Shown: positions 10,413 to 58,859 of the stretch, piece after piece
How the letters are laid out: each line of letters opens with the position of its first letter
Numbering within the stretch: the first letter of the stretch is position 1
NCBI RefSeq assembly: GCF_000723465.1
Contig: NZ_HF545616.1
Span: 248,001 to 312,000, forward strand
Direction: 5' to 3'
DNA: 64,000 bases
From: Ruminococcus bicirculans (ex Wegman et al. 2014)
GTDB lineage: Bacteria > Bacillota > Clostridia > Oscillospirales > Ruminococcaceae
Position numbers and translations under genes: made by a program
The notes under the pieces: model-generated
The model's database searches: none
The model's input: the letters and a program-made list of their open reading frames with translations, nothing else
What the model was told of the DNA's origin: nothing

Positions 10413-10420
10413 AGATTCAG

Positions 10421-18168: not shown

Positions 18169-18178
18169 CTCATATGAT

Positions 18179-18207: not shown

Positions 18208-18238
18208 TGCCTGAAAACTGCACAATATGCCAAAACGC

Positions 18239-18267
18239 TTGACGAAAGATATTTTATATTGTAAAAT
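18239..18267 (+). promoter_or_regulatory. promoter of the agrB-agrD genes
   Basis: TTGACG (18239-18244), 17-nt spacer, TAAAAT (18262-18267), 23 nt before agrB. The upstream AT-rich stretch to the terminator is where an AgrA-type dimer would bind. Confidence 0.6.
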
Positions 18268-18290
18268 TCAAAAAAAGCAAGGTGAAAATT

Positions 18291-33332: not shown

Positions 33333-35186
33333 TCACCTTCCTCCTACCGAACCAAACAACGCAGCCTTGTAAGCAGGAGCAATGACCTGCAGCAGATACC
33401 TCTCATTACCACACCGATACAGGCAAGTACCTCGTTCGGGATACTTGATAAGACTGTACTCTGACTCTTCCAACTGTAAGGTGTCAATGAATGCCGTCGG
33501 CGAGATATTTCCCGGATTGAACAGAAAATGATGTACAGGAATAGAAAACAGCGGCTTTGTGAACTCCTTTATCTCAGGCAGCAGAAAGTCCTCGATATTC
33601 TGACTTGCCAGAATAAACGAGGACTCTTTCTTACGCACACGTTTCATACCGTTACGAATATATTCTATCGCCGTCATATTAGTGAGGAATAAATACAGCT
33701 CATCAACTGCCGCAACAGTATTTCCTTTGCCTAAAAGCTGATCAGACATATATGACAAGATGTTGAACAGCAGAGTATCTTTCAGCCGCTTGTTCGTATC
33801 CATAAGACCCTTTACGCCGAAACAGATAAACTCACCGTCCTTGATGTTTGTTCTGCCGTTGAAATATTTCGACTCTGCACCCTTGCACATTGAGTGCAAT
33901 CCCAAACAGATATTCTGCAATATTTCTTCGGTGTAGAGGTGTTTTTTAGCATTATCAAACGCCATAAATTCTTTTTCAACTAACTCATACAGGTCTGACA
34001 TTACAGGATAGTCACAGCTTTCCAGCTTATCGAGATCTGTAAGATCGTCAATTCCGAAACGTGCATACAGCTTCATAAGCATTATCTCTATTGTGTCGAT
34101 CTCTGCGTCTGTGAAGTCTTTGTATGCTCTGAAAAAGTCTTTTAGATAGCTGATGTGCTGACTTAAACGGGTTACTTTTCGGAATGTTTCAGGGCTGTCA
34201 CCGGTTTCCTTTTCTTGATTTTCAGGGCGAGAACTTTCTGACCACGCTTTGGGCTCAAGCGGATTTATCATAAACTCGCCCGACATCATATCAATGTATG
34301 TTCCGCCAAGGTTATTGCACAGGTCCTCATATTCGTGTTCAGGGTCTAAGCACAGTATAGATTTGCCTGATTCACGCTGATTGCACAACAGCAGTTTCAT
34401 AAGATAAGATTTGCCCTGACCGCTGTTGCCAAGTATCAAAATGTTCGAGTTGGTTTTGTCCTCGGTTCGCTTGTCAAAGTCAACAAGAATGTTAGTTCCA
34501 AACTTGTCACGGCCAATATATATGCCTTTTTCGTCAGTCTTACCTGAATAGTTCAGCGGATAAAGATCAGCCACAGAGCTTGCAGGCAGCACTCTTTCAA
34601 ACTGACTTGCAAACACGTTATTGCCCGCAGGATGAACAGACAAGAATCCCTCTTTCTGTCGTAACAGCAGTCTGTCAACGGATATTTTGGAACGTGTCAG
34701 TTCCATTTGAATATCAGCCTGCAGTTCTTTCAGCTTATCCTCAGTACTTGCTTTTAGCTCGATAAACACGGCTGTATGCAGGAGCGGCTCTTTATTCCTT
34801 CTAAGCTCCGACAGCAGTTCTACCACATCGTCAATGTTGTTCTGAGCCTTTATGCTCTCGTTGACGTCATTTGTGGTGGTCATCATATGGTTTTTCCTCA
34901 TTGCCTGCTGAACGATCTTCCTTTGCTCCATGCTTGTAACAAGTCGGTTGTAGATACGGAGCGTTACACCGTTCCTGTCCGCAAGGTGAGCAAGTATAGC
35001 CGTTTCTTCCGTACTTGGCGGATACTCCGTCACCGCCCAGCAGGACTTGTAGAAGTTTCCGCAGATGTAGTGGTCGGTGTAAAAGCGGATCACGCCCGGC
35101 ATGGTGCGGTCGAAAAAGTCCTTTGCTTCCACTATCTCAAGCTGCTCATCAGACAGTTCTTTTTTCTTCTGCTTTTTAGTTCTCAT
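33333..35186 (-). CDS. VirB4-family conjugation ATPase
   Basis: 617 residues from ATG 35186 (GGAGG seven bases upstream; longer in-frame starts overlap the previous gene more). Walker A is ILGNSGQGKSYLMKLLL and Walker B-like residues occur in VAAVDELYLFLTNM, followed by SFILASQNIEDFLLP. The N-terminal part is the CagE/TrbE-like region. VirB4 powers substrate movement and pilus/channel assembly at the inner face of the membrane. Overlaps the upstream gene by 11 nt. Confidence 0.92.
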   Translation of the reverse strand: MRTKKQKKKELSDEQLEIVEAKDFFDRTMPGVIRFYTDHYICGNFYKSCWAVTEYPPSTEETAILAHLADRNGVTLRIYNRLVTSMEQRKIVQQAMRKNHMMTTTNDVNESIKAQNNIDDVVELLSELRRNKEPLLHTAVFIELKASTEDKLKELQADIQMELTRSKISVDRLLLRQKEGFLSVHPAGNNVFASQFERVLPASSVADLYPLNYSGKTDEKGIYIGRDKFGTNILVDFDKRTEDKTNSNILILGNSGQGKSYLMKLLLCNQRESGKSILCLDPEHEYEDLCNNLGGTYIDMMSGEFMINPLEPKAWSESSRPENQEKETGDSPETFRKVTRLSQHISYLKDFFRAYKDFTDAEIDTIEIMLMKLYARFGIDDLTDLDKLESCDYPVMSDLYELVEKEFMAFDNAKKHLYTEEILQNICLGLHSMCKGAESKYFNGRTNIKDGEFICFGVKGLMDTNKRLKDTLLFNILSYMSDQLLGKGNTVAAVDELYLFLTNMTAIEYIRNGMKRVRKKESSFILASQNIEDFLLPEIKEFTKPLFSIPVHHFLFNPGNISPTAFIDTLQLEESEYSLIKYPERGTCLYRCGNERYLLQVIAPAYKAALFGSVGGR

Positions 35187-35757
35187 TTGTTTTCGCCTCC
35201 AAATCAAATTCGGTTTCTCCCTCGATATCGGGTATCTCATCGCCTGAAATACTCGTTCCGAAATACAGTGCCAGCATACGCTTGATCTCAGGCTTAGTCA
35301 TTCTCCTAGCCGCAAAACCGTGCTCCGATATTGCCTTATCCACACGATTCAGCGTGCTGAATATCTGCTCGTCCTTTTCACGTCTGAACCGCACAGCAAA
35401 CATAAACTGCCTTGCCGTGGACATCTCAATCTGTATCTCATCAAGAAAATCATAGTCAGCTTGCAGCAGTTTTCTGACCGCCTCGTTCTGCTCTTTTTCA
35501 AGCCTTTTCCTGAGATGATTTTTATTGCTGTCAAAACACTCGCAGGAGTCCAATGCCAGTATTTCTAGGTCAGGTATGGTACTCAATAACATCATAAGAT
35601 GATGTATTTTGACATCGATATTAGCTGCTGACAGAACAGAAATATTGGTAGGTTCTACGTTGAAAAAAGCAAGCTCGGCTTTGTCGGTCTTTACACCGAA
35701 ACGAGTAAAGCGTTCAAGACCTATCAAGCCCTGAACGCTGTTTTTGTTCTTTGTCAT
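35176..35757 (-). CDS. conserved transfer protein upstream of VirB4
   Basis: 193 residues starting MTKNKNSVQGLIGLERFTRFG and with a strongly charged central helix (KNHLRKRLEKEQNEAVRKLL). No membrane segment. In Gram-positive elements a protein of this type precedes VirB4 and resembles its N-terminal domain (split or partner protein). The acidic tail (DEIPDIEGETEFDLEAK) is notable. Its stop overlaps VirB4's start by 11 nt and its start meets the PrgI-like gene's stop. Confidence 0.75.
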   Translation of the reverse strand: MTKNKNSVQGLIGLERFTRFGVKTDKAELAFFNVEPTNISVLSAANIDVKIHHLMMLLSTIPDLEILALDSCECFDSNKNHLRKRLEKEQNEAVRKLLQADYDFLDEIQIEMSTARQFMFAVRFRREKDEQIFSTLNRVDKAISEHGFAARRMTKPEIKRMLALYFGTSISGDEIPDIEGETEFDLEAKTNEN

Positions 35758-36039: not shown

Positions 36040-36074
36040 AAAAAAAGAACTCCGAAATTGCTTTCAGAGTTCTT
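36040..36074 (-). terminator. strong terminator just upstream of the PrgI-like gene
   Basis: Minus strand: AAGAACTC-tgaaagcaatttcg-GAGTTCTT followed by TTTTT. It directly follows a tRNA-like 3' half ending in CCA. Confidence 0.85.
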
Positions 36075-36166
36075 GGTGAGATGCAAGGGATTCGAACCCT
36101 TGATGGCACTTATATATAATAATTTCAATAAAACATCATACTTGGTACATTCACAAGAATCATCTC
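36074..36166 (-). other. degenerate tRNA-like sequence ending in CCA
   Basis: Minus strand: the T-arm AAGGG-TTCGAAT-CCCTT is perfect and is followed by GCATCTC, A and CCA. An upstream GAGATGA pairs with six of seven acceptor bases, and CTTG...CAAG could be a D-stem, giving a 93-nt class II size. There is no canonical anticodon arm and no GG in the D-loop, so it is not a working tRNA. It may be a tRNA 3' fragment captured from an old attachment site. Confidence 0.5.
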
Positions 36167-36211
36167 AAAAGTGCCACTTATAGCCTTTCTTAGAAATGCT
36201 TTAAATCCCAT
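36125..36211 (-). CDS. possible 28-residue peptide
   Basis: MGFKAFLRKAISGTFEMILV continuing to NVPSMMFY and stop, with a perfect GGAGG six bases before ATG 36211. Amphipathic and hydrophobic; small hydrophobic peptides often sit here in transfer operons. It overlaps the tRNA-like sequence, so one of the two readings may be chance. Confidence 0.4.
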   Translation of the reverse strand: MGFKAFLRKAISGTFEMILVNVPSMMFY

Positions 36212-36384: not shown

Positions 36385-37320
36385 TTATGCATTATGTTTC
36401 AGCATACCGACCGCTTTAGCTCCAATAGAAACCGTATGGCTAACAGACATCATATTGACTCTCACACTGGTATCCAATCCATACATCTGAGCTATCCTCG
36501 GCACTTCAGTAGCTGACAGGCAAATGCCCACTGCAATAAGAGGGTGCTGAGTGTAAGTCAGCAATCCTAGATAAAGTATCACAGTCTGCAAAAAGGCTGT
36601 AAGACAGGTCGCTATCACTTGTTTGCACCAGCTTGAAAAGCCGTCTGTAAAGCCTCTGGGAATGCCTATCATATATATACTTCCCACTGCTATCTGACAC
36701 AGCATTATGCCGCCTCGCTTGATGTTCGCAAACACGACCTTTACCGTGCAGTAACCGAAAAGTATGATAAAAAACAGGCTGAAAAGTGAAACGTCAGATG
36801 CAAGAACATACAGCACAGAAAGCCCCGAATCGGCTATAGTGCTGTATGTGTCAGACAAAAACACCCCAAGCAGATCATAGGAAAATGAACCCTGCAAAGC
36901 TATGCACAGCTCGTAAAGCCGCTGTGGGACTACCGCAAAGAGAGCCGCCGCCATAAAGCCTTTTATCACATTCACACAGGTCTGCCTGATGTTAGCCGCT
37001 CCCGACTCGTATGCCATAGCAGTGTCAAAAACCGCCATGACAAGACCGCAGACAAAAAGCATCCAACCGAGAGCCTGAAACAGACTGACAAAGGTCCTCA
37101 CCCAGGCAAGAGAGAACAGATCGGTTGCCGACTGATCTATGAACATAAAAAGCTCTGCCACCGCACCGTAGACCTTGTTGAAAAGCCACTCGAACATAAT
37201 GTCCCACACAGCGTCGGATATTGCGTCTACCGCTCCGCCTATGGTGCTGTCCCACAAGCTTGATATCCCGTCGCCTATCCAGTCGATAGCGTCAGATATC
37301 CAATCAAACAAGCTTATCAC
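36385..37320 (-). CDS. VirB6/TrbL-like polytopic transfer protein
   Basis: 311 residues. An amphipathic repeat-like N-terminus rich in Asp-Ala-Ile-Asp (DWISDAIDWIGDGISSLWDS) precedes six or so membrane helices (VRTFVSLFQALGWMLFVCGL and others). It fits VirB6/TrbL channel proteins of Gram-positive type IV secretion. It overlaps the end of the HTH gene by 17 nt. Complete. Confidence 0.82.
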   Translation of the reverse strand: MISLFDWISDAIDWIGDGISSLWDSTIGGAVDAISDAVWDIMFEWLFNKVYGAVAELFMFIDQSATDLFSLAWVRTFVSLFQALGWMLFVCGLVMAVFDTAMAYESGAANIRQTCVNVIKGFMAAALFAVVPQRLYELCIALQGSFSYDLLGVFLSDTYSTIADSGLSVLYVLASDVSLFSLFFIILFGYCTVKVVFANIKRGGIMLCQIAVGSIYMIGIPRGFTDGFSSWCKQVIATCLTAFLQTVILYLGLLTYTQHPLIAVGICLSATEVPRIAQMYGLDTSVRVNMMSVSHTVSIGAKAVGMLKHNA

Positions 37321-37624: not shown

Positions 37625-39415
37625 TTATGTCTTGACATTGGTCTTTTTCTTTGGCTCTTCCTCAAATTCCACAGGCAGCATATCTTTTTTCTTCTGAGGA
37701 TATTTGATTTCAATATCACGAATAAGCTCGTCACGCTCCTTGTATGAAACATTTCTTGCGGTCTTATCGGGAAGTTTGTATTCTTCTTCAAACTTGATAC
37801 CCCATTTGAAGAACAGTTTTAATTTGCTTATCATCGGGTGTGTTCCTGTTTTCATAACGATAAACTGTCCTTTAGGCATGGACTTTAATTCGTCCACAGT
37901 CATAAGCGGTCTGCCTATCATCTGCAATGACTGAGATCTGTCCCTGCCGTTTGATATAGAACCGCTTAATACCGTCTGTTCGCCCAAAGCTTTTGAAAGC
38001 ACCTCTGCACTCTGGCTGTTTGGTGCAAATCCGCCGAACACAGTAAGCTGAGTGTTGTCAGTTATTATCTCCATACCCTGTTTCCCGTAGTTCTGTTCAA
38101 GCTGTGCAAAGGACTGTATTATCGCCACAATGGATATTTTTCTTGAACGTCCTGCGGAGAACATAGATTCAGCACCCTCTATCTTAGGAAAAGTTCCAAA
38201 CTCGTCGCAGTAGAACATAACTCTGTTTTTAAGCTTTCCGCCGTTTTCATCTGCAATGACTAATATCTCACGGTATAGCTGTTGGATCAAAAGTGAAACC
38301 ATAAAATATTTGCTCGTATCTTCTTCGGGAAGAACAATAAAAATAGCAGACTTTTCATTGCAGAACTTCTCGGCGTCTATCGCCGTTCCAAAACACAGCA
38401 TTTGTTCAAGTTCAGAATCAAGAAAACTGTTGAGCCTTGAAAGTGCAGTCGACATTACAGAAAGCATAGACTGGTCGGACGCATTCAGAGCCGCTCCTGC
38501 AAGCCATTTGGCTTTGTGTTCGCTTGGAAGCTTGTCCATAAGCTTTGAAAAATACATTTTAGGTTTTGCTTTCGGGTCTGGCTGATACTTTGCCAAAAGG
38601 TCCTGTATCAGCTTGAACACCGAAACGATGTGACGTTCGTTCTTTTCGCCGAACTCCGCAAGTAAAAGAATAACGGAAGCAAGCAGACCCTCAGCCGCAT
38701 CGTAGAAAAAAGCGTTTTGTCCGTAGCTGTGGCTGTCACCGCCGCCGATGTTGATTATTGTTTTTGCTGTGATCTTAGCATATTTCTCAGCCTTTGCTTT
38801 CGCTGAAAGATTGTTTTTATCGGACAGATAAATGTCCATATACTTGTTTACAAGATGCAGGATATTGTTTTCGTCTGAGCGTGTAGGGTTACGCAGATCA
38901 AGCACAGAAACATTGTAGCCGTAATACTTGCTTGCGATAGTACCATAATTTCGTGCCACATCTCCCTTTGTATCCGTCGAGATAAACGACATTCCGCTTG
39001 CACAAGCGAGTTCGATGTTAGGGTACAAGAAGTATGCGGTCTTGCCGACTCCTGCCGCTCCTATCATAAGCGTATGGACATCACCGGTATCCACAAGTGC
39101 AACAGTTTTCTTTCCTGAACCTCTGCACCCGACCACAGTTCCCTGAATAACATCTCCGTTAGAGCTTTGCGGAAGATTTTCTCCCTTACGCCATTTATCA
39201 GGCTCGAATGGCAGAGGGATAAAAGTACGTTTTATCTCAGCTTTTGTCGCCCACCTCGCAGTTCCGTGCTGTCCATTGCCGACTTTTTTTGCCTTTATTC
39301 CGTTAAGCGATTTGTTGTCAAGCAGATTTACTACCACTAAAAAGGCAATGAAAATTACAACAAGTACGCCTATTAAAAACATTTGTCTATCATTCAATTT
39401 CTCACTTCCGATCAT
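37625..39415 (-). CDS. VirD4/TraG-type coupling protein
   Basis: 596 residues: an N-terminal membrane helix (MFLIGVLVVIFIAFLVVVNL), then GNGQHGTARWATKAEI typical of TraG proteins, Walker A MIGAAGVGKTAYFLYP, Walker B VMFYCDEFGTFPK, and IIQSFAQLEQNYG. This ATPase hands the relaxosome to the secretion channel. The SD before ATG 39415 is weak; a TTG 18 nt downstream is better spaced but would remove little. Downstream HTH gene follows by 15 nt. Confidence 0.93.
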   Translation of the reverse strand: MIGSEKLNDRQMFLIGVLVVIFIAFLVVVNLLDNKSLNGIKAKKVGNGQHGTARWATKAEIKRTFIPLPFEPDKWRKGENLPQSSNGDVIQGTVVGCRGSGKKTVALVDTGDVHTLMIGAAGVGKTAYFLYPNIELACASGMSFISTDTKGDVARNYGTIASKYYGYNVSVLDLRNPTRSDENNILHLVNKYMDIYLSDKNNLSAKAKAEKYAKITAKTIINIGGGDSHSYGQNAFFYDAAEGLLASVILLLAEFGEKNERHIVSVFKLIQDLLAKYQPDPKAKPKMYFSKLMDKLPSEHKAKWLAGAALNASDQSMLSVMSTALSRLNSFLDSELEQMLCFGTAIDAEKFCNEKSAIFIVLPEEDTSKYFMVSLLIQQLYREILVIADENGGKLKNRVMFYCDEFGTFPKIEGAESMFSAGRSRKISIVAIIQSFAQLEQNYGKQGMEIITDNTQLTVFGGFAPNSQSAEVLSKALGEQTVLSGSISNGRDRSQSLQMIGRPLMTVDELKSMPKGQFIVMKTGTHPMISKLKLFFKWGIKFEEEYKLPDKTARNVSYKERDELIRDIEIKYPQKKKDMLPVEFEEEPKKKTNVKT

Positions 39416-49206: not shown

Positions 49207-49967
49207 TACGCAAGCTCCTTTCCGTAATACTTTTTCAGCAATGATATAACGAAGAGCTGCCCCTTTCCGGTCACAAACGTCTGCTGATAGGTCTTTTTCA
49301 TGCCGTCAACCTCAAACACTGATTCCTTAACTGCAAAATATCCTCGGTCGATATATCTCTGATACGGCAGATTGTTTGACATAAGCACTCCCATTTCTTT
49401 CAGCCAGCGAAACAGTCTTGTTCTGCCGATATTGAAATTTTTATCAGCCGCAAGCTTTGCCATAGCATTCATATCTATGAGATCCTCGCTGTCGGCAACG
49501 TGCAGAGCGAAATCCACGAGTGGCTTATCATTTCTGATCCGTTCATTCAATTTGCTGATAAACGTCATCTGCAGACGGAAAAGATTTTTGTACGGTTCGT
49601 CGAGGAAGGGCAGGTAGTTTTCAATAAACATTTCTTCGTTTGAAACATAGCCGCCTGTTCTGCGGATAGTTGGGAGGATATCATCAAATATCCAGCTTTC
49701 AAATTTTTCAGCAGAGGGAAGTCTGGAGTGGGATATAAGGCGGTACACATCACCTTCGGATATCATTTTCATTTCCTGTGCACCGCCATTTGTAAGGAGG
49801 CGGCGTTTTACAGCCCCCTTACAATGAGCATTTATCGCATCTTTTGGCCTTCTGTACCCTAATGCCTTTGCAACATCAGAGCCGCAGAAAAGTATTTTCC
49901 CGTTTTCCTCGATAGTTCTCACCGAGCCAAACTCCTCATTCACAAATGTTTTCACCATATTATCCAT
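49206..49967 (-). CDS. phage-type antirepressor (Bro-N domain)
   Basis: 253 residues. N-terminal Bro-N domain: FGSVRTIEENGKILFCGSDVAKALGYRRPKDAI ... SEGDVYRLISHSRLPSAEKF and IFDDILPTIRRTGGYV. The C-terminal ANT/KilA-C-like part (YQQTFVTGKGQLFVISLLKKYYG) is typical of phage antirepressors, which bind and inactivate repressors. Start ATG 49967 has GGAG seven bases upstream. Overlaps the dcm end by 8 nt. Confidence 0.88.
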   Translation of the reverse strand: MDNMVKTFVNEEFGSVRTIEENGKILFCGSDVAKALGYRRPKDAINAHCKGAVKRRLLTNGGAQEMKMISEGDVYRLISHSRLPSAEKFESWIFDDILPTIRRTGGYVSNEEMFIENYLPFLDEPYKNLFRLQMTFISKLNERIRNDKPLVDFALHVADSEDLIDMNAMAKLAADKNFNIGRTRLFRWLKEMGVLMSNNLPYQRYIDRGYFAVKESVFEVDGMKKTYQQTFVTGKGQLFVISLLKKYYGKELA

Positions 49968-51231
49968 TCGCATTCTCCTTATCAATGTCTAAAATATACT
50001 TTGCCAGAGCCTCAATAACATTAGTTGTCACCGCATTTCCTGCTTGCTTGTACAGCTGTGCATCGGACATTCCTGTGGCTTTCACCCTTTCAAACTGCTC
50101 ATCTGTAAAGCCCTGCAGCCGCCAGCATTCCAACGGCATAAGCTTTCTGATATACCCGCAGTACACAACGCCGTGTCTGTCGGTAACGGTCAAAGTAAAC
50201 ATCGGCTCGTTGGGAAGTTTAAATCTTCTGCCTTGCTGACGGACTTTTTCCTTTTCGGGAGTAAGCACGGCTATCGGGTCTGTTATGAGGACAACTCCGG
50301 ATTTTTCGCCTTTGTGATGACCAATACCGCTGTCCTGCCTTGCGGTGATACATCTTGCAAGCTCTGTGACTTTCGGCTCGGGATTCATATCTATCCCCAA
50401 TGCGTAATATCCCTGATTACAGCTTGTTGTAAGGGTATGGGCTATCTCCTTGCCCACTCTTCCACGCCTTGAATTCATATCGGGATAGGCAAGATCTATG
50501 CTGTCGCCCGGCAAGGCAATCTGATAGCCTGTTTTGGTTTTGACCTTTATAGGCAGTCCTAAAATTTCATAAAGCCCTGTTTTTCCGCCGAAACCTCCTG
50601 CCTGGCTTGTAAGCGTTATGCTCAGTCCCTCAACGGAGTAGACTCGGTTTCCTTCCTTTCCGGGAATTCTTTGGACAAGAGTTTTTGGATTTGCTTCTGT
50701 GAAAGACAATACTTTTCCGGAACACTTTTCTCTATGAAATCCGACAATGAACACTCTTTTTCTTGACTGGGCAACTCCAAAATTTGCGCTGTTAAGCACC
50801 TGCCATTCGACATCGTACCCCAGTTCATCCAATGTACCGAGGATGGTCGCAAACGTCCTGCCGCCGTCATGCGATAACAGTCCGGGAACGTTCTCAAGCA
50901 GCAGATATTTAGGTTTTTTGACGGCAGCAATTCTGGCAATTTCAAAGAAGAGAGTTCCTCTTGCATCGTCAAAGCCGCCCCTTTTTCCAGCGATTGAAAA
51001 GCTTTGACAAGGGAATCCTCCGCAAATAAGGTCGAGATCGGGCAGTTCGTTTGGGTCAATTTTTCTTGCGTCATCGTAATACACCTCGTTTTCCGTATCA
51101 TACAACGTTTCGTATGCTTTTTTAGCATACTTATCTATTTCGCAGTATCCGACGCACTGAAAGCCGCCTGCTTTTTCAAGTCCTGAGCGAAATCCGCCGA
51201 TACCTGCGAAAATATCAAAATATTTTATCAT
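49960..51231 (-). CDS. C5-cytosine DNA methyltransferase
   Basis: 423 residues. Motif I FDIFAGIGGFRSGLEKAGG, catalytic GGFPCQSFSIAGKRGGF (Cys75), ENV motif LLLENVPGLLSHDGG, QSRKRVFIVGF, a variable target-recognition region, and C-terminal QAGNAVTTNVIEAL. It is complete and probably self-protective. A second, truncated copy of its 5' part lies at 57655-58146. Confidence 0.93.
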   Translation of the reverse strand: MIKYFDIFAGIGGFRSGLEKAGGFQCVGYCEIDKYAKKAYETLYDTENEVYYDDARKIDPNELPDLDLICGGFPCQSFSIAGKRGGFDDARGTLFFEIARIAAVKKPKYLLLENVPGLLSHDGGRTFATILGTLDELGYDVEWQVLNSANFGVAQSRKRVFIVGFHREKCSGKVLSFTEANPKTLVQRIPGKEGNRVYSVEGLSITLTSQAGGFGGKTGLYEILGLPIKVKTKTGYQIALPGDSIDLAYPDMNSRRGRVGKEIAHTLTTSCNQGYYALGIDMNPEPKVTELARCITARQDSGIGHHKGEKSGVVLITDPIAVLTPEKEKVRQQGRRFKLPNEPMFTLTVTDRHGVVYCGYIRKLMPLECWRLQGFTDEQFERVKATGMSDAQLYKQAGNAVTTNVIEALAKYILDIDKENANG

Positions 51232-51255
51232 TTACCACGTTCCTTTCTGCAATAA

Positions 51256-51294
51256 AAAAAACGGCCAAGCTTTTTTCAAAACTTGACCGTCACA
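51256..51294 (-). terminator. terminator between DUF4314 and dcm genes
   Basis: Minus strand: ACGGTCAAG-ttttgaaaaaag-CTTGGCCGT followed by TTTTTTT. It lies after the DUF4314 stop and before the dcm gene. A matching hairpin exists in the second copy near 58165-58203. Confidence 0.8.
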
Positions 51295-51595
51295 TTGATA
51301 TATTCATTTCTTCAGATTCTTCAATATCCTCAGTTTCCGTAATTTCTTCTGTTTGCTCATCGGTCTGAGTCTGTTCCTGATCAATTTTATGGAACTTATC
51401 CACATCGGGAATAACTCCGAGCGTTCTTCCGTTATCGAATTTGCAATGGAGAGTACCTGCATCATCCACAAACTCAACCGTACAACAGGTTCCGCTTTCA
51501 ATGGGACAGTAGTCGTCCATCGAGTCAACGCAGATCCTTGTTCCTTCCGGATATCTCTGTCTCAGTATTTCTACCTTGTTTTGGTTGTATATCAT
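51290..51595 (-). CDS. DUF4314 protein with acidic tail
   Basis: 101 residues. The N-terminal ~70 residues (LRQRYPEGTRICVDSMDD, then GTLHCKFDNGRTLGVIP) form the SH3-like DUF4314 domain. A Glu/Thr-rich tail ends SEEMNISM. DUF4314 is common in clostridial elements; its role is unknown. A paralog occurs at 58200-58466 with a shorter tail ending EEEMNMSM. Confidence 0.85.
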   Translation of the reverse strand: MIYNQNKVEILRQRYPEGTRICVDSMDDYCPIESGTCCTVEFVDDAGTLHCKFDNGRTLGVIPDVDKFHKIDQEQTQTDEQTEEITETEDIEESEEMNISM

Positions 51596-51676
51596 ATTGC
51601 CTCCTGTTGAATTAATTTTTGCTCTCTTTTAATGGTATACCTGCCACATTGGAATCACCCTCTCTCTTGTGCTAAC

Positions 51677-51958
51677 AAAAAAGACTGTTTCGTTTAACAT
51701 CACATTAATTCGTGATATTAGACAAAACAGCCTTTAAAACTTTGTGAATTTTTTTCATAACAAAACGGCAGGCTCAGAGCAAAATCTGCTCAAAGTCTGC
51801 CGTTTTGTTTGACGATGTTTAATTGTTGAGGGTTCAGATCCTTTTTTAACGAAAAAGCATCTACCGTTTTACACCTGAAATTTTTACCCTCAAAACGCAA
51901 AAAAAGCTCGTAAATACGAGCTTTTCGAGGTGTGCATCTATTTTATTGCACAAGTATG
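51677..51958. repeat. element right-end direct repeat, copy 1
   Basis: About 282 bp nearly identical to 58494-58776. It contains three stem-loops (the AACGGCAGA...CTGCCGTT stem, AAAAGCTCG/CGAGCTTTT, and a CAC/GTG stem near 51700-51720) and ends GCACAAGTATG at 51958. The second copy ends at the same base inside the tRNA-Tyr CCA. This marks the original right end of the ICE. Confidence 0.88.
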
Positions 51959-52038
51959 AACTGTCTGTACGAAATTGACTGCGTGAGAAAAATAGATTAA
52001 GAAAGCCGCATCATGGGATTGTTATCTGATGCGGCATT

Positions 52039-53547
52039 TCATTGTAATTCTGATAAATTTAAATGCCGATTCCGTAAGTAATTGTCATACATTAACTGCG
52101 GATCAAGCATGCGTACTTCAACGACACCAAGACCGAGTTGTTTTAATATGTCTATTTTTACAAATCCCGGGATTTTATCTTCGCCTTTGCGTTTGGGCAT
52201 CAAGAAGTAATTTCTTACTTCGCTAACCTTATATCTTTCCAATACATCTCGGTAGGCAAGATAATATAAATATTGTTTTGAAACATCTTCAACGCTCGGT
52301 TGCCCTGAAATTGAATCATCTGTCCAATTTGGACAATAGTACTTAGCATCAAGGATATAAAAAACATAGTAATCGGGATTTGCTTTGCGTTCAAAGCGCA
52401 GATAATCTGGTTTAAATGTGTCTTTTGGAATTCCGCTAGCACCTTTACGATATCTTTTCCATATAGGTTGTTTTATTAGTTCAACTAGGGTAGGGGTCTT
52501 ACCCTTGAAATTTTTGTTTATCATTGAGTGATCAATGTAAGGTTCGATCTTGTTTAGAGAATCATTTTTTTGGCTTGTAAATACTTTCGCACAAACTTCT
52601 TCCCATATAGTTTCAAAAGATCGCGTACCAATAAGTTGTAGTTCATTTTCTCCAAGCAAGACTTTTCCGCTGTTGAAATATAATTTCAATGCTGTAAGCA
52701 CCGAAAGTTTTCTATCATCGAATGTTTGCGATATTGTGCTTTCAAGCACATTTAAAATCTGTTCTTCATCTCCAAATGCACTCTCATCTTCATCAGAAAC
52801 ATAAACGGATGGAAGGCTAAAGAAATTTGTTAGCGAAGTTTTTTCTATTTCTTGAGAACATTTTGTAATAACGAACTCATGTAGACGTTTTAAATAATCG
52901 AAATCATTATTAACATTTCTGCGAGTGTATAGTTCTACATAATATGGTCTGTTGTTAGATAGTATGGGATAAGTCTCATCAATTGTTTTTTGCCAAAGGA
53001 TTTCGTCGCTTCCGTTAATTTCAATTATTGTCTCATCCGTTTCGTATGCACCATTTGATGCATAATCTTCCAAAAGAAAGAGCATGACTGAAAGAAGTTT
53101 GTCTCGATTATGATTTCCTTCATCAGCAAAAAGGTCTATGTTATAGATATCCTGTTTTGATTTCTCTCTACTGTACTTTTCAATTACTCTAAGAACCTGT
53201 GCCAATTCTCTTTGCGGATTATATGAAGGGAGCTTTTGGTTTTCACCAATATATTTTGGGTACACATAAATAAGCCTATTATGACAGATAACTATACCAA
53301 CAAATGTAAATTTATATACCGCATTTAAATAGGTTTTGTCATTATAATTATTGAAATCAACATCTTCGTCTTCATCGACATCATTATCCAATTTGCTCTT
53401 GAGTTTTATGATTTTTCGTGCAAGTAAATCCTTAACGAATCTAACAAAACTATCTTCATCACTTTCAAATGAAAACATATTCTTGCTTCTTAGATCGGTA
53501 GCAGGATATAGCCAGTCCTCTCTAACGTAAGCGGATATAATACTCAT
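52039..53547 (-). CDS. LlaJI/McrC-like restriction endonuclease subunit
   Basis: 502 residues. An N-terminal region typical of the McrC/LlaJI nuclease subunit (VGIVICHNRLIYVYPKYIGE) is followed by a helical middle. A C-terminal PD-(D/E)XK nuclease core follows: KPDYLRFERK, then FYILDAKYYCP (Asp, Lys). It would act with the McrB-like AAA+ protein encoded just upstream (19-nt gap), which moves on DNA and activates cutting. Genes for this pair and an adenine methylase form one operon. Complete. Confidence 0.85.
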   Translation of the reverse strand: MSIISAYVREDWLYPATDLRSKNMFSFESDEDSFVRFVKDLLARKIIKLKSKLDNDVDEDEDVDFNNYNDKTYLNAVYKFTFVGIVICHNRLIYVYPKYIGENQKLPSYNPQRELAQVLRVIEKYSREKSKQDIYNIDLFADEGNHNRDKLLSVMLFLLEDYASNGAYETDETIIEINGSDEILWQKTIDETYPILSNNRPYYVELYTRRNVNNDFDYLKRLHEFVITKCSQEIEKTSLTNFFSLPSVYVSDEDESAFGDEEQILNVLESTISQTFDDRKLSVLTALKLYFNSGKVLLGENELQLIGTRSFETIWEEVCAKVFTSQKNDSLNKIEPYIDHSMINKNFKGKTPTLVELIKQPIWKRYRKGASGIPKDTFKPDYLRFERKANPDYYVFYILDAKYYCPNWTDDSISGQPSVEDVSKQYLYYLAYRDVLERYKVSEVRNYFLMPKRKGEDKIPGFVKIDILKQLGLGVVEVRMLDPQLMYDNYLRNRHLNLSELQ

Positions 53548-53566
53548 AAGACTATACCTCTACAGA

Positions 53567-55195
53567 TTAACATTCTTTTTCCATTTTTGCGGCATCACGC
53601 TCTGCTATCTGATTTGCATATTCTCTTGATCTGAAATCTGAACCAAATATAGCAAGACCTCTTGATTTAAACTCTGCACAAATGTAAGAAAAACGATTTA
53701 ATTTATCGCTATCGCACCCTTCAAAAAGTTCCTTATGTTTTGTCTTTGCTGCATCCTCAAATAAATACATAATAACTTTTTCACAGAATAGTGTACTGAA
53801 TTCTTCATCCTCATGACCTAGTGTGAATAAACACGTTCCGGTAGAATCTTGTGTTTTCATAAAAAATGGTCCCATCAGCTTATCTTCATGAGCTTTTATT
53901 CTGTCATTTGACAACTTAGCATTTATCGCACGACGTAAAACATTCCACTCAACGGCTCCGTCGGCAAGATTAAACGTTCCACTTTGACATTCTGTAGCAG
54001 TTTTTACACCAGTTGAGGGATCAATATTTACCTTGAATTCTTCATCATCAATGCCAATATAATTAAAGTTCCACCTACGCTTAAATGCTGTATCCATTGG
54101 GAATACACCCTGATCCGCACTATTCATAGTTGCGAAAATATACATATTATTTGGAATCGCCAATTTGGAATAAGCGGAAGCTGCACCGCCAAAGTGTTCA
54201 GCTAAATATGCCCGTATATCCTCACTTGCGTTTATTGAGTATTCACTTCTTCCGGTATCATCCCTGTCGAGCAATTGAAACATATCGCCAAAAACAGCCG
54301 CAGCCTTAGCTCGGTTTAATTCTTCAATAATAAGATAATGTTTGTGAGGGGCTGTGGTTGAAGCATTTTCCAACGCCGCGACAAGCGTTCGCATAAATGG
54401 ACCAGGAACGAATTTATAAGTTATCATACCACCAACGTCTACTGGCTTATATGTTCCTATAAACTGCGAATACGAATAATCTGAATAAAAGGTTACTCGT
54501 TCATAATCATCAGATGAAACATGATGTTCATCTAAGTATTTCTTAAAAAAGTAGCTTTTGCCAGTTCCTGGAGCCCCGAAAGCAATCACATTGCGCTTGT
54601 CCCTTTCGTCAAGAGGGGTATAATTAAATGTCACTAATGACGGGATAAAATACGGTCGCATATCAAAAATATTTAGATAATCTGTTACTTCTGCAGGAAT
54701 TATAGCAGTACCACCATTTGATATTCTGAGAAAAGATGCCTGATATATGCCACAAGCATGATCACCATTATTACAACGAATACAATTAATGGGCGCAGAG
54801 GATGCTGCAACTTTCCCATCTAGCCACTCATACATGCTTCTTATGTCCATGCGTCCAGATATAGATGAGACATTGGTTTCAAGCGAAACAATGTACTCAG
54901 AGGGGGTTATATGTCCCAAATAAGAAACATACGCTGCTGCCTTACTATATATGGTAAGGAAAAAGAATCGTTTTTTCTCGCTTCGAGCAATGTGATATCC
55001 ATTTGTAGCGTTATCAGTAAATATCCTAATCTGAGGTCGAGCTCGCTCCGTTCCAGTGATTGAGATATCAGCATATGAAATAATTATTGTTTCTGTTGAG
55101 GGTAGTGTAACCTCATCTATGTCCCCAGCTCGATTTACTCTGGGATAGTGAAGTTGATTATCAATATAATTGCGAATAATTTCTGTAGAATTCAT
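53567..55195 (-). CDS. McrB-like AAA+ NTPase of the restriction system
   Basis: 542 residues. N-terminal DNA/target-binding region, then Walker A IAFGAPGTGKSYFFKKYL (about 208-225), Walker B YLIIEELNRAKAAAVFGDMF, sensor FATMNSADQGVFPMD and arginine finger AFKRRWNF. These match McrB GTPases and the LlaJI R1 subunit. It would form a ring that drives the nuclease subunit. SD AAGGAG precedes ATG 55195. Confidence 0.9.
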   Translation of the reverse strand: MNSTEIIRNYIDNQLHYPRVNRAGDIDEVTLPSTETIIISYADISITGTERARPQIRIFTDNATNGYHIARSEKKRFFFLTIYSKAAAYVSYLGHITPSEYIVSLETNVSSISGRMDIRSMYEWLDGKVAASSAPINCIRCNNGDHACGIYQASFLRISNGGTAIIPAEVTDYLNIFDMRPYFIPSLVTFNYTPLDERDKRNVIAFGAPGTGKSYFFKKYLDEHHVSSDDYERVTFYSDYSYSQFIGTYKPVDVGGMITYKFVPGPFMRTLVAALENASTTAPHKHYLIIEELNRAKAAAVFGDMFQLLDRDDTGRSEYSINASEDIRAYLAEHFGGAASAYSKLAIPNNMYIFATMNSADQGVFPMDTAFKRRWNFNYIGIDDEEFKVNIDPSTGVKTATECQSGTFNLADGAVEWNVLRRAINAKLSNDRIKAHEDKLMGPFFMKTQDSTGTCLFTLGHEDEEFSTLFCEKVIMYLFEDAAKTKHKELFEGCDSDKLNRFSYICAEFKSRGLAIFGSDFRSREYANQIAERDAAKMEKEC

Positions 55196-55207
55196 AATGT
55201 TCTCCTT

Positions 55208-56053
55208 TTAGTAGTTTGTAACAACAATATGGGAGGCATCTCCTGTAAATCTATTTCTAATATTTACCGAATATCTAATTGGATATTCAGCCACCACATT
55301 TTGCCCATAGAGTTCTGTAGTAAGAGGTGTTCTACTAATTACCATTAGTGCTCGACAATTCAAATTATAGAACGCTCCTGCTAACCGTCGTTGTTCAGCT
55401 TCATTGAAATCATCTGTTAAATTTCCATATTCATGAAACGTACAATCATATGGTGGGTCTAAGAAAATAAAATCATTCGTTTGTGCCAAGTTGAATACAT
55501 TCTCAAAATCATCGTTTAGAATGTGCGTTCTTTGGAGCAGATCTCTGTGACCTTCGGTAATAATGTTTACATTAAAATGCTTGTATCGCCCATATGGTAC
55601 ATTATATTGCCCTTGAGCATTAAAACGTAACATTCCCGAATAAGCTGTCTTATTAATGAAATAATATAATGTTGCAGGCAAATATTCCGAAGGGATAATG
55701 CTGTTATACATATCTCTTAATCTGTAATAGAGTGGTTCGTTCCCATTTTCTATTCTAATTTCTGGATTGCGCATTTTTTTTGTACTGTATACATCTTCAT
55801 TATGCTCATAGATTTCATGCAGAGTTTGTAATTCATCCATAACTCGATCATACTGAGTTGCCAGCTGCCTATAGAAATTTATAAGAGGTTCATTTATATC
55901 ATTGATAATGGCATTGTTGGGTTCCTGTTGAAAAAAGACAGCGCCTCCACCAAGAAAAGGCTCAATGTAAGTATCGTAATCAGCGGGAATAAAATTTATG
56001 AATTGGGGGATTTCCCTTCGTTTCCCTCCACGGTATTTGATAATAGCATCCAT
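55208..56053 (-). CDS. DNA adenine methyltransferase of the restriction system
   Basis: 281 residues: motif I KYRGGKRREIPQFINFIP, FLGGGAVFFQQEP, and catalytic FIFLDPPYDCTFHEYG (DPPY). A D12-class N6-adenine methylase. It is first in the operon with the McrB- and LlaJI-like genes (12-nt gap), so it probably protects the host site. Classic LlaJI uses cytosine methylases, so this is a variant combination. SD TAGGAG precedes ATG 56053. Confidence 0.9.
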   Translation of the reverse strand: MDAIIKYRGGKRREIPQFINFIPADYDTYIEPFLGGGAVFFQQEPNNAIINDINEPLINFYRQLATQYDRVMDELQTLHEIYEHNEDVYSTKKMRNPEIRIENGNEPLYYRLRDMYNSIIPSEYLPATLYYFINKTAYSGMLRFNAQGQYNVPYGRYKHFNVNIITEGHRDLLQRTHILNDDFENVFNLAQTNDFIFLDPPYDCTFHEYGNLTDDFNEAEQRRLAGAFYNLNCRALMVISRTPLTTELYGQNVVAEYPIRYSVNIRNRFTGDASHIVVTNY

Positions 56054-56071
56054 TGATATTGCTCCTAATTA

Positions 56072-56233
56072 CTATTCTTTTAATTCATTATCATGAACCG
56101 ACTGGTTTGGCTCTGGTAAAAACTCTACGATATCATCTATCTTACAGTTTAGCACCTGACATATTTTTTCAATCGAATCGAGGGACACATACTCATCACG
56201 GTGCATACGTGTTGAAATATTAGTGCCATACAT
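56072..56233 (-). pseudogene. truncated XRE controller protein of the restriction operon
   Basis: 53 codons giving only the second half of an HTH_26-type regulator: GTNISTRMHRDEYVSLDSIE, then KICQVLNCKIDDIVEFLPE. The first helices are missing and a 25-bp tandem duplication lies right at the truncated start. It is 18 nt upstream of the methylase start, where a controller gene is expected. It may be non-functional, or the missing part may be supplied by another start I cannot see. Confidence 0.6.
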
Positions 56234-56276
56234 ACATTATATCATATCTTTCATACATACATTATATCATATCTTT
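56227..56276. repeat. perfect 25-bp tandem repeat carrying -10 boxes
   Basis: Two exact copies (56227-56251, 56252-56276), each with TATAAT on the minus strand (56236-56241 and 56261-56266). The duplication moved or doubled the promoter of the restriction operon. Confidence 0.85.
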
Positions 56277-56289
56277 GTCGAAAAAGCAA
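56261..56289 (-). promoter_or_regulatory. promoter of the restriction-modification operon
   Basis: Minus strand: TTGCTT (56284-56289), 17-nt spacer, TATAAT (56261-56266). The extra -10 at 56236 has no comparable -35. Confidence 0.6.
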
Positions 56290-56506
56290 CCTCAATCCCC
56301 GATTTTACGCTATTTCAAACTTCGACTCCACTGGAATCAAAGTACCTCTCAAAAAAGAAAAGAGCCAAGCAGCAAATTCCTCAGCTCCATAATCTTATTC
56401 TATCCCCGTAAACATCACCTGATAATTCAGCCCTAATCCTGTATAATAAAACTTGACACATACAAGACAATCAAAGTATAATAAAAAACAAAGGAGTGTG
56501 TCATCA

Positions 56507-56700
56507 ATGGGAACAGGAAAACAATATGATGAAGAGTTTAAAAAGCGGGCAATAAAGCTCGCAAGCTTCAGGCAGCAAACAAGCGGATCAAAGAGCTCGA
56601 AAAGAAAAACCGTGAGCTTGAAGAGCTTAATGAATTTCTGGAGGAAGCATCTGCTTTTTTCGCTGCGAACCGTCGGAAGTCAGGAAAGAAGAACGGTTAA
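56507..56700 (+). pseudogene. IS3-family OrfA, internally deleted
   Basis: Starts MGTGKQYDEEFKKRAIKLAS with a good SD (AAAGGAG). It then jumps frame; the coiled-coil end (KRIKELEKKNRELEELNEFL) is in another frame. About half the HTH domain is missing, so OrfA cannot bind ends normally. Confidence 0.85.
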
Positions 56701-57617
56701 AGTTCATTTCCAAAAAGACTGATGACGGTAGGATCACAGGAAGGATCAGTTTTTACTGCAAGGCTTTAGAGGTTACAAGACAAGCATTTTACGATCATCT
56801 CAGCCATAAAAACGCCCCCTGGAAGTATCAGGCACTTGCAGATGAAATGATGAAGATCCACGAAGAAGACCAATATAATGACTGCTACGGCAGAGAGCGT
56901 ATGTATCTTGCATTGCAGCAGAGAAAGGATGCCGGGAAAACTGACATTGACATTCCATGTGAAACTACTGTACGCAAGGTCATGGTGCAGATAGGATTGA
57001 TACACAAGCCTCGCAGAAAGCCAAACGGGATAACCAAAGCTGATCGGCTTGCTCAAAAATCGGATGATCTTCTCAGACGTGATTTTTACGCAGACAGGCC
57101 TTTGAAAAAAGCTGTGACCGACATGAGCGAGGTGAAGGCAAAGGATGGAAAGCTCTATGTTTCAGCGATATTTGACTGCTTTGATCTGATGCCGCTGGGG
57201 ATAGCTATTGAAGATAATATGAGAGCTTCGCTCTGCTGCCATACTCTTGAAAACGCAAACAAATCATATCCTGATATAAAAGGCTGTATCATACATTCGG
57301 ACAGGGGCAGTCAGTATACAAGCGAAGAGTACCGAGCTGCTGTAAAGAAATATGGGATCATTCAAAGCATGAACAGTGCCGGTGGAAGATGTCATGATAA
57401 TGCACGCTGTGAAAGTATGTGGGCAAGAATGAAAGAAGAGCTGTTCTACAGCCGTGAGGACAAGCCGGAGAACTACACTATGAAAGAGTTGAAGACCATG
57501 ATCTGGAGATATTTTATGAGTTACTGGGCCAACAGAAGAATCTGCACCGCCAACGGTGGTCTGCCTCCGGCAGCCCGAAGAAAGCTCTACTATGATCATA
57601 TCTTTCTCGTTGCATAA
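56694..57617 (+). CDS. IS3-family OrfB, DDE transposase
   Basis: About 300 residues when read from the overlap with orfA (RLKFISKKTDDGRITGRISF...); the first ATG is near 56847. Catalytic residues are all visible: Asp in KKAVTDMSEVKAKDG, Asp in GCIIHSDRGSQYTSEEY, Glu in ARCESMWARMKEELFY. It ends YWANRRICTANGGLPPAARR. It normally needs a frameshift from OrfA, so expression here is doubtful. Confidence 0.88.
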   Translation, partial: RLKFISKKTDDGRITGRISFYCKALEVTRQAFYDHLSHKNAPWKYQALADEMMKIHEEDQYNDCYGRERMYLALQQRKDAGKTDIDIPCETTVRKVMVQIGLIHKPRRKPNGITKADRLAQKSDDLLRRDFYADRPLKKAVTDMSEVKAKDGKLYVSAIFDCFDLMPLGIAIEDNMRASLCCHTLENANKSYPDIKGCIIHSDRGSQYTSEEYRAAVKKYGIIQSMNSAGGRCHDNARCESMWARMKEELFYSREDKPENYTMKELKTMIWRYFMSYWANRRICTANGGLPPAARRKLYYDHIFLVA

Positions 57618-57654
57618 TTCTTGTTCGAATAAAATGTGTCAAGTGATATTGACA

Positions 57655-58146
57655 AAACCAAATATACACTCTTTTTCTGGATTGGGGTACACCAAAATCT
57701 GCGCTGTTAAGCACTTCCCATACGACATCGTACCCCAATTCATCCAACGTACTAAGGATGGTCGCAAACGTCCTGCCTTCGTTATGCGATAGCAGTCCGG
57801 GAACATTTTCAAGGAGCAGATACTTAGGTTTTTTAATGGCGGCAATCCTGGCGATCTCAAAGAAGAGAGTTCCTCGGGTATCGCTGAATCCTTTCCGTTT
57901 TCCAGCGATCGAAAAGCTTTGGCAAGGGAATCCTCCGCATATAAGGTCGAGATCGGGCAGTTCGTTAGGGTCGATCTTTCTTGCATCATCGTAATACACC
58001 TCGTTTCTTGTATCGTACAACGTTTCGTATGCTTTCTTTGCATATTTGTCTATTTCACAATAACCGACGCACTCAAAACCTCCTGCTTTTTCAAGTCCTG
58101 AACGGAATCCGCCGATACCTGCAAAGATATCGAAATATTTTATCAT
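57655..58146 (-). pseudogene. 5' part of a second cytosine methyltransferase gene
   Basis: About 164 codons almost identical to the start of the dcm at 49960-51231: FDIFAGIGGFRSGLEKAGG, GGFPCQSFSIAGKRKGF, LLLENVPGLLSHNEG, VPQSRKRVYI. An IS3-family element interrupts it and the C-terminal 250 residues are gone. It shows the second copy of the ICE right end. Confidence 0.92.
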
Positions 58147-58199
58147 TTACCACGTTCCTTTCTGCAATAAAAAACGGCCAAGCTTTCTTAACTTGACCG

Positions 58200-58466
58200 T
58201 TACATTGACATATTCATTTCTTCTTCCTCGGTTTGTTCCGATCCTTCTCTGATAACGTGAAAATCGTCCACGCCTGGGATCACGCCGAGCGTTCTGCCGT
58301 TGTCAAAGATACAATGCAAAGTGCCGATGTCATCAACGTGATCGACCCTGCCAAGAGTACCAGACTCAACAGGGAATGGATCATCATTCATTCTGTTAAG
58401 GCAGATGCGAGTCCCTTCGGGATACCGTTCTTTCAGCCATTCTACTTTCTTGTGATCGTAATACAT
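58200..58466 (-). CDS. DUF4314 protein, second copy
   Basis: 88 residues, paralog of the protein at 51290-51595 (LKERYPEGTRICLNRMNDD, IGTLHCIFDNGRTLGVIPG). Tail ends EEEMNMSM. Intact, with SD AGGAGG. Located between the dcm remnant and the terminal repeat, as in copy 1. Confidence 0.85.
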   Translation of the reverse strand: MYYDHKKVEWLKERYPEGTRICLNRMNDDPFPVESGTLGRVDHVDDIGTLHCIFDNGRTLGVIPGVDDFHVIREGSEQTEEEEMNMSM

Positions 58467-58493
58467 TATATATTCCTCCTTTTTCTACAAATG

Positions 58494-58776
58494 AAAAAAA
58501 GGCTGTTCTATCATCGTCACTTAAATTCGTGACAATAGACAAAACAGCCTTTAAAACTTTGTGAATTTTTTTCATAACAAAACGGCAGGCTCAGAGCAAA
58601 ATCTGCTCAAAGTCTGCCGTTTTGTTTGACGATGTTTAATTGTTGAGGGTTCAGATCCTTTTTTTACGAAAAAGCATCCACGGTTTTACACCTGAAATTT
58701 TTACCCTCAAAACGCAAAAAAAAGCTCGTAAATACGAGCTTTTCGAGGTGTGCATCTATTTTATTGCACAAGTATG
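58494..58776. repeat. element right-end direct repeat, copy 2
   Basis: About 283 bp matching 51677-51958 with a few substitutions. Ends GCACAAGTATG, of which the last bases are part of the tRNA-Tyr CCA end. Marks the junction of element and chromosome. Confidence 0.88.
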
Positions 58777-58859
58777 GTGGGAGAAGGTGGATTCGAACCA
58801 CCGAAGCTAGAAGCAACAGATTTACAGTCTGCCCCCTTTGGCCACTCGGGAATTCTCCC
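58775..58859 (-). tRNA. tRNA-Tyr (anticodon GTA)
   Basis: 85 nt, class II. Acceptor GGGAGAA/TTCTCCC, anticodon loop CTGTAAA within GACTGTAAATC, long variable arm, T-arm GGTGG-TTCGAAT-CCACC, discriminator A and encoded CCA. The mobile-element repeat begins at its 3' end. Confidence 0.97.

Follow-up and report, generated by a model that had tools for sequence, protein, structure and literature searches.

The window analysed here is a stretch of 64,000 nucleotides from the genome of Ruminococcus bicirculans (contig NZ_HF545616.1, positions 248,001 to 312,000). Positions without a prefix refer to the window; C1 denotes this contig and C2 another contig of the same genome. Next to tRNA-Tyr, a block composed of the 5' part of a C5-cytosine methyltransferase gene (dcm), a DUF4314 gene, and a non-coding repeat is present twice. 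Our results support reading the two blocks as the right ends of two integrative and conjugative elements (ICEs) of the same family, which follow each other behind tRNA-Tyr: ICE A, and a remnant, element B, between ICE A and the tRNA gene (Table 1). We consider it probable that these ends belong to a family of ICEs that carries a trio of serine recombinase genes, finds its attachment site (attB) in tRNA genes generically, and accretes in tandem.

The repeated block and its tandem arrangement

The sequence-only reading of the window had reported the block twice in the same order, and alignment bore this out. The non-coding repeats (51677-51958 and 58495-58776) are identical at 268 of 281 aligned bases, with two gap columns; the dcm 5' blocks (50746-51231 and 57661-58146) at 420 of 486 bases, without gaps; and the DUF4314 genes (51290-51595 and 58200-58466) at 192 of 259, with 55 gap columns. 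As that reading also had it, both copies end on one same base, beyond which copy 1 continues into unrelated sequence. Copy 2 stops on a TG that is the complement of the CA in the encoded CCA of tRNA-Tyr, copy 1 stops on the identical TG at 51958, and 15 of the 60 bases past the common end match, which is the chance level. The copies diverge by about 5% in the repeat and about 14% in the dcm block. This is too much for a recent duplication in the assembly. The complete dcm lies at 49960-51231 and not, as had been noted, at 51290-51958. The second dcm is indeed truncated, and the cut is at an IS3-type element (~56453-57642).

A large serine integrase leaves a 2-bp core between inverted-repeat arms and shares nothing more with its target, and a tyrosine integrase would need a longer shared overlap. 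At the occupied sites, element sequence directly follows the CCA; an identical core of several base pairs, shared by attP and the tRNA 3' end and duplicated at both ends, would be expected for a tyrosine integrase. A search of C1:188001-332000 for a second tRNA-Tyr 3' end (25 bases) found none at six or fewer mismatches and one at seven.

The clearest junction between a right and a left end was found behind tRNA-Trp in another genome (G033:C14), where CATCTATTTTGTTCCACAAGTATG passes directly into TAACTCTGGAACAAAATAGATG, forming an inverted repeat centred on TG. The 2-bp core, the inverted-repeat arms, and an attB sharing only the core fit the attachment sites of a serine integrase. Between this junction and tRNA-Trp lies a 45.9-kb element (15563-61414) with both ends present. 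Its homologues of the GGACT, amidoligase, trio, MobL, VirB4, TrbL, VirD4, dcm, and DUF4314 genes are 42-85% identical to those of ICE A, and the gene order is the same wherever both have the genes.

We scanned 444 kb of stretches of the own genome for left ends. The first, looser scan gave too many chance matches and was replaced by a motif scan, in which C1:246871 matched with one mismatch and the next best site with five. This motif had been drawn with the C1:246871 site in view; in the fairer leave-one-out test, C1:246871 (score 24.9) was still the best of 59,180 TG sites. With its left end at this best site, the whole of ICE A measures about 53.1 kb (C1:246873-299958). The left end had earlier been sought near 5.8 kb, a position we rejected because the GGACT and amidoligase genes found there are also internal in the G033:C14 element; the left end that we propose is 1129 bp to the left of the window start. 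Accordingly, an excised circle of ICE A would join C1:246871, and not the 5.8-kb position, with 51958. Relaxase, VirD4, VirB4-like, and integrase genes lie between the two located ends, which would make ICE A a Tn1549/CD1115-type ICE; its VirD4 scored 256.9 with the CD1115-family model of NCBIfam, for which the cut-off is 250. A sister ICE at tRNA-Thr on C2 has the trio and the right end as in ICE A.

The proposal of two related elements in tandem at tRNA-Tyr stood in its main part: two different right ends follow one another, and right/left junctions occur in other genomes. The part that did not stand is the specificity for tRNA-Tyr, as the site is the CCA end of many tRNA genes; the left end of B is also only weakly recognisable. 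The outer element, B, is the decayed one, as had been proposed; its dcm is truncated by the IS, and it has a LlaJI-type restriction module inside. A new element might in this way inherit the defence genes of an old one.

The tandem at 51958 could also have arisen without insertion at attR or attL, if a circular element recombined with an integrated one by homology, or through a deletion in an older tandem. We regard this as somewhat unlikely. A and B do share stretches that are 86-95% identical, an exchange between them would likewise leave a junction resembling the attachment site of the free element (attP), and B is truncated and IS-bearing. Against recombination, 11 of the 104 distinct right ends described below pass straight into a left end (those on short contigs may be circles rather than tandems), and the array in G033:C14 contains two different right ends; the window itself is where recombination may still apply. 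The tRNA-proximal element of the G033:C14 array has both ends and the trio, and the distal right end is damaged, unlike in the window, where the proximal element is the remnant. With both orders of decay seen, insertion at either side, or homologous recombination, would be compatible with the arrays. Right ends in a row with right/left junctions between them were also noted in G481:C11 (31359, 53834, and 119854) and G333:C4 (554913 and 630586), which may be arrays of at least two elements.

A further alternative, which we judge unlikely, is that 51959-58776 is old flank with a fossil right end instead of a second element, and that ICE A inserted at a chance CA. The putative left end of B scores 3.0, a value reached or exceeded by 360 of the 59,180 TG sites, and known left ends, each left out of the matrix, score 5.7 to 36.8; in addition, the base before the CA is T and not C. 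However, this score is still within the top 0.6%, and B terminates in a complete right end, in register with DUF4314 and dcm. The sequence following 51958 has no good second copy elsewhere in the own genome. We read B as a second element with a plausible, though decayed, left end.

One right end at many tRNA genes

When the own genome was searched with the repeat, seven places matched with E values of 1.1e-44 or lower. Five adjoin complete tRNA genes (Tyr, Asn, Trp, Thr(ggt), and Leu(tag)), one adjoins a 24-nt 3' piece of tRNA-Leu, and one is copy 1 of the window. The right end is carried by 6 of the 56 tRNA genes of this genome. The pattern of the last 25 bases was found in 33 stretches of named GTDB genomes, 22 of them titled Ruminococcus; two of these loci (L110 and L127) were excluded as likely chance matches without a terminator. 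With a covariance model of the last 61 bases, matches were obtained at the family level in 79 of 396 genomes (E 1e-3) and at the class level in 13 of 391, the own genome included (E 1e-4).

From 108 ends (31 pattern loci, 8 from the own genome, 67 covariance-model matches, and 2 others) we removed 4 exact duplicates, leaving 104 distinct right ends, among which near-duplicates may persist. The 67 are the family-level matches that were read, mostly the top-ranked among the matches listed. A complete tRNA gene ending in CCA adjoins 68 of the 104 ends; these tRNAs cover 22 anticodon kinds, so that the repeat is not the flank of tRNA-Tyr alone for which it had been taken. Another 15 ends adjoin a tRNA 3' piece, the shortest of 23-24 nt and starting inside the T-loop, and 10 are of other kinds, including a contig end and copy 1 of the window; the rest are the junctions with left ends. 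The assignment of ends to tandem junctions and tRNA pieces was in part visual (the left-end score of L201 is only 5.7); L118, where the contig ends after 17 nt, was counted as a tRNA piece, and L183, at a contig end, as other, as was L160 despite a complete tRNA-Arg 7 nt before the matched end. A transfer-messenger RNA (tmRNA) as the target at L172 was rejected, as ARAGORN called none. Among the class-level matches outside the own genome, 14 were listed and 10 read: eight begin at the CA of a complete tRNA's CCA, with Cys as a new kind, one begins one base beyond the CCA of tRNA-Ala, and one has no tRNA.

The difference between free and occupied sites falls exactly after the CCA. Identical tRNA-Asn genes are present at two sites in the own genome, both behind a tRNA-Ala/Ile pair as in an rRNA operon. 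In the free copy (C1:169990) the CCA is followed by GAGAGC and an apparent native terminator; in the occupied copy (C1:967436) it is followed by TACTTG and the element end. The same holds for the tRNA-Trp pair at C2:343292 and C1:1591634. Ends at least 90% identical occur at different tRNAs in 6 of the 12 genomes that have ends at two or more tRNA kinds. In the own genome, the Tyr and Asn ends are identical over 50 of 50 nt and the Asn and Trp ends over 70 of 70 nt; identical ends were also found at Gln and Thr in G003, Pro and Trp in G448, and Thr-cgt and Thr-ggt in G244, and the Leu and Gln ends of G028 are 98% identical. The free and occupied copies, together with near-identical ends at different tRNAs, argue that the end is mobile and not a native trailer. 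All 66 occupied tRNAs in the fetched loci end in CCA, as against 71 of 102 free ones (p 2.2e-8; the search pattern and the model both contain the CA).

One could also suppose that the recombinase of each lineage is fixed on one tRNA, and that the many tRNAs reflect repeated evolutionary changes of specificity. Right ends do vary between lineages, and many occupied tRNAs occur without a resident trio. We nevertheless find this improbable, given the identical or nearly identical ends at different tRNAs within single genomes just described, and a switching integrase is expected to change the arms of its attP as well.

The tRNA pieces bear on how much of the gene a generic site would include. Flanks were readable for four of them: two lie next to a tyrosine integrase, the other two next to pfkB-type chromosomal genes. 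In view of the tyrosine integrases, at least some pieces look like 3' ends displaced by another kind of element. If the pieces were the original targets, the tRNA half needed would comprise at most part of the T-loop, one strand of the T-stem, the acceptor strand, and the CCA.

Recombinase trio, proposed mechanism, and gene content

The enzyme set common to ICE A, the C2 ICE, and the G033:C14 element is a module of three adjacent serine recombinase genes on the same strand near the left end (7816-12586 in ICE A), at a distance of 8.9 kb in ICE A and 3.8 kb in G033:C14. The catalytic Resolvase domain is not present in all three proteins: the middle one has no PF00239 match in Pfam. The trio has this composition in the three fullest members examined, and open frames of close relatives of the middle protein are about equal in length.

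The presence of the middle recombinase is associated with that of the right end. A right end was found in 9 of the 10 genomes with a middle recombinase of at least 49% identity over most of its length, compared to 70 of 386 others (p 2.9e-6), and in 22 of the 48 genomes with any match at E 1e-20, compared to 57 of 348 (p 1.1e-5). We worked out by hand the distances on the ten contigs where a listed right end and a match to the middle recombinase occur together. In seven (G000:C1, G000:C2, G033:C14, G333:C4, G041:C1, G332:C1, and G101:C5) the two are in the expected order, 40-57 kb apart. From these sequence associations we infer that the trio is the integrating enzyme. The L- and R-arms are inverted repeats flanked by TG on both sides, which could also come from a DDE transposase that acts on terminal inverted repeats and duplicates 2 bp of its target. 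Such an enzyme is nonetheless very unlikely: among the 39 open reading frames of ICE A in the window compared with Pfam (a selection of the frames), the only DDE-type matches were an internal IS3-type gene (24317-25150) and a Mutator-type fragment (27402-28031), and the shared set near the left end is the serine trio.

We propose that the trio recombines an attP built as an inverted repeat (R-arm, CA/TG core, L-arm) with an attB that has two dissimilar halves. One half would be the 3' end of a tRNA gene, with the T-loop about 24 nt before the end and a CCA whose CA is the 2-bp core; the other would be arbitrary sequence downstream of the tRNA. Since every tRNA gene that encodes its CCA shares this geometry of T-loop and CCA, many tRNA genes would be usable, as would tRNA 3' pieces down to 23-24 nt. 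The tRNA sequence would be kept after insertion, and the right end of the element would bring a short hairpin and an intrinsic terminator that takes over from the native terminator. As the tRNA half survives in attR, further elements could be added there, giving right-end/left-end junctions such as that at 51958; such accretion, and not homologous recombination, is presumably the source of the tandems. More tentatively, the target may be the tRNA gene as such: the trio would read the T-loop/CCA geometry and ignore the other half-site, the middle protein without a catalytic domain would be the reader, and the element would gain dozens of safe harbours, bring its own trailer and terminator, and stack. 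Reading of the T-arm by the trio is presumed, and the assignment of the tRNA half to the middle protein is a guess.

Several observations weigh against this account. No middle-recombinase match at E 1e-20 was found in 57 of the 79 genomes with a right end; some ends are therefore either remnants or dependent on other enzymes. G313 has a close trio protein and no right end called; G285, left out of the ten genomes above because its match (51%) covers only 100 aa, is also without a right end. Of the contigs with both features, G246:C6 needs 75 kb and G408:C4 86-91 kb, and the order on G098:C153 is wrong. An 8-kb tandem element at tRNA-Ser lacks a close trio and encodes two tyrosine integrases. 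The proposed left end of ICE A is spanned by a 401-aa open frame with an HD domain, which is unusual for an element end, and the left-end scans of the own genome did not find the left ends of the sister elements on C2 and at C1:1385k; the weak left end of B belongs here too. The search pattern and the covariance model include the CA and are hence biased to ends at CA; the model holds no tRNA sequence beyond the CA, so the remaining tRNA context is an independent result. Finally, the T-arm is conserved in all tRNAs, so that in sequence comparison reading of the T-arm is indistinguishable from mere tRNA identity.

Read outward from the tRNA, the element end consists of a short hairpin followed by an intrinsic terminator. 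The fold z-scores of six right ends range from -2.3 to -6.3, with -5.5 for the end at tRNA-Tyr. The terminator stem covaries: 96.7% of its cells are paired and 21 two-sided changes were counted, a result reached in 0 of 500 shuffles, for a structure derived from the same alignment as was tested. The right end would thus substitute for the native tRNA terminator displaced by insertion. That the 61-nt end is simply an ordinary family of native tRNA trailers and terminators is most unlikely: it is terminator-like, and a trailer of this type follows tRNA-Arg(cct) at C1:200078, where we recognised no element, yet a single genome can have identical trailers at different tRNAs, a tRNA whose one copy is occupied has another trailer at its free copy, the end is linked to dcm/DUF4314 and to the trio, and right/left junctions occur away from tRNAs.

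The tRNA-Arg(cct) trailer itself (C1:200015-200076) is a diverged element end, perhaps a fossil kept as a terminator. The right ends at L116, L117, L124, and L131 are broken inside the terminator hairpin by sequence resembling ATAGGGAAC, as if another element targets terminator stem-loops.

Table 1. Features of ICE A, element B, and their target in the window.
Feature	Position	Strand	Basis and remarks
ICE A, part inside the window	1-51958	-	Left end by motif, right end by repeat
Serine recombinase 1 of the trio (Resolvase, Recombinase, Zn ribbon)	7816-9486	-	Pfam; AAYCRVST motif
Middle recombinase-like protein without catalytic Resolvase domain	9368-10318	-	Pfam; open frames of relatives similar in length
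Serine recombinase 3 of the trio	11060-12586	-	Pfam; AAYCRVSS motif
MobL relaxase with Sel1 repeats	28432-31302	-	Pfam
VirB4/TraG-type P-loop ATPase	33333-35240	-	Pfam
TrbL-type conjugal transfer protein	36385-37320	-	Pfam
VirD4 coupling protein, CD1115 family	37625-39415	-	Pfam, NCBIfam
Complete C5-cytosine methyltransferase (dcm), ICE A	49960-51231	-	Pfam, NCBIfam
DUF4314 protein, ICE A	51290-51595	-	Pfam
Right end of ICE A; last 61 bases are R-arm hairpin and intrinsic terminator	51677-51958	+	TG core at 51957-51958
Junction resembling attP: right end of A followed by a putative, degenerate left end of B	51957-51992	+	Left-end matrix score 3.0
Remnant element B, 6.8 kb, between ICE A and tRNA-Tyr	51959-58776		Bounded by two right ends
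LlaJI-type restriction endonuclease, B	52039-53547	-	Pfam
McrB-like AAA protein, B	53567-55195	-	Pfam AAA_5; NCBIfam McrB model below cut-off
Dam-type adenine methyltransferase, B	55208-56053	-	Pfam, NCBIfam
IS3-family element interrupting the dcm of B	56453-57642	+	NCBIfam; ends by eye, 9-bp inverted TTGACACAT/ATGTGTCAA
dcm 5' remnant, B	57661-58146	-	420/486 bases as in the ICE A copy
DUF4314 protein, B	58200-58466	-	Pfam
Right end of B, extending to the CA within the CCA that tRNA-Tyr encodes	58495-58776	+	Repeat comparison, ARAGORN
tRNA-Tyr(gta), target, intact	58775-58859	-	ARAGORN, Rfam

The chromosomal flank of tRNA-Tyr was sought through relatives with a naive tRNA-Tyr (13 stretches by nucleotide, 10 of them by protein), and only G001 matched. 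A gene 3.3 kb behind its tRNA-Tyr matches C1:205406-205882 (69% over 159 aa) in the right orientation. If this single gene match, which is thin evidence, reflects synteny, the native chromosomal flank would begin again near C1:205.9 kb, and about 100 kb would be piled behind tRNA-Tyr. The tRNA-Tyr of G003 is occupied by a different dcm-bearing element. To the left of the window, the segment that separates ICE A from a tRNA-Leu 3' piece (C1:237999-246871) contains a tyrosine integrase gene (C1:245328-246725) and Abi_2, HIRAN, and sigma-70 genes.

Within ICE A, a pemK RNA motif (13684-13733) lies near a PemK/MazF-like toxin gene (12941-13288), and consecutive genes for a LytTR response regulator, a GHKL sensor, and an AgrB-like protein (16136-18866) resemble a peptide quorum-sensing cassette. 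A tRNA-like RNA on the minus strand (36040-36190) shows an acceptor stem, a D-like arm, a long arm on the anticodon side, a T-arm (GGGTTCGAATCCC), CCA, and a terminator. It received no ARAGORN call and no Rfam match at gathering; its fold z-score, terminator included, is -4.9. It lies in a gap of the alignment with the sister ICE on C2, and among 100 genomes only short matches to the T-arm or terminator were found, in seven genomes besides the own one.

Comparison with known systems

SCC elements use serine recombinases (Ccr), insert at the 3' end of a conserved gene, and form tandem arrays. The elements described here resemble them in these respects. The SCC target, however, is rlmH, and the best score of the present recombinases with a Ccr model (CcrB, NCBIfam) was 130 bits, far below the cut-off of 900.

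Streptococcal ICEs with a serine-integrase triplet have mutT, traG, and hsdM as targets, which are disrupted (Ambroset et al. 2016, PMC4701971). As far as the accessible text of that paper describes them, they share with the present elements three adjacent genes of the same orientation near one end, sometimes with other genes between the trio and the target, very short direct repeats (2-8 bp in theirs), and, in some, Tn1549-type conjugation modules. The triplets described there all have the Resolvase domain, in contrast to the middle protein here, and the target here is the CCA end of many tRNAs, which is left intact. Multi-targeting large serine recombinases (Durrant et al. 2022, PMC10083194) are similar in that one recombinase cluster uses many attB sites with a common core dinucleotide. 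The example in the available portion of that work has a TT core and flanks enriched in A/T, unlike the tRNA gene 3' end here, and the word "tRNA" occurs 0 times in its main text.

The Tyr_8 integrases of streptococcal integrative and mobilizable elements (IMEs) (Coluzzi et al. 2017, PMC5357655), in the sections available, likewise combine one family with several tRNA genes, short direct repeats, and accretion; they are tyrosine integrases and use four tRNA kinds, whereas the enzymes here are serine recombinases. According to the accessible part of an actinobacterial survey (PMC3218068), tyrosine and serine integrases integrate mostly at tRNA genes, so that tRNA targeting by serine integrases is not unheard of. 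The actinobacterial ICEs (AICEs) in that survey integrate into tRNA genes, and related integrases can use different tRNAs; unlike the particular tRNAs of each AICE integrase group, one end here is found at 22 or more anticodon kinds. We found no description of a tRNA-generic site, a portable terminator, or a middle protein without a catalytic domain in the parts of the open-licence PMC literature that could be searched, which excludes preprints.

As far as the compared texts go, ICE integrases use one or few sites. An enzyme set able to use many tRNAs would, if our reading is true, explain how one gut genome has right ends at six tRNAs. The part of the tRNA gene that an integrase reads would become directly testable, with natural targets cut to 23-24 nt. 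A terminator that travels with the element suggests a way in which an essential gene is kept functional after insertion, and tandem arrays are a possible route by which defence modules accumulate behind tRNAs. Eukaryotes harbour retrotransposons that home on tRNA genes, and the family described here would be their bacterial counterpart.

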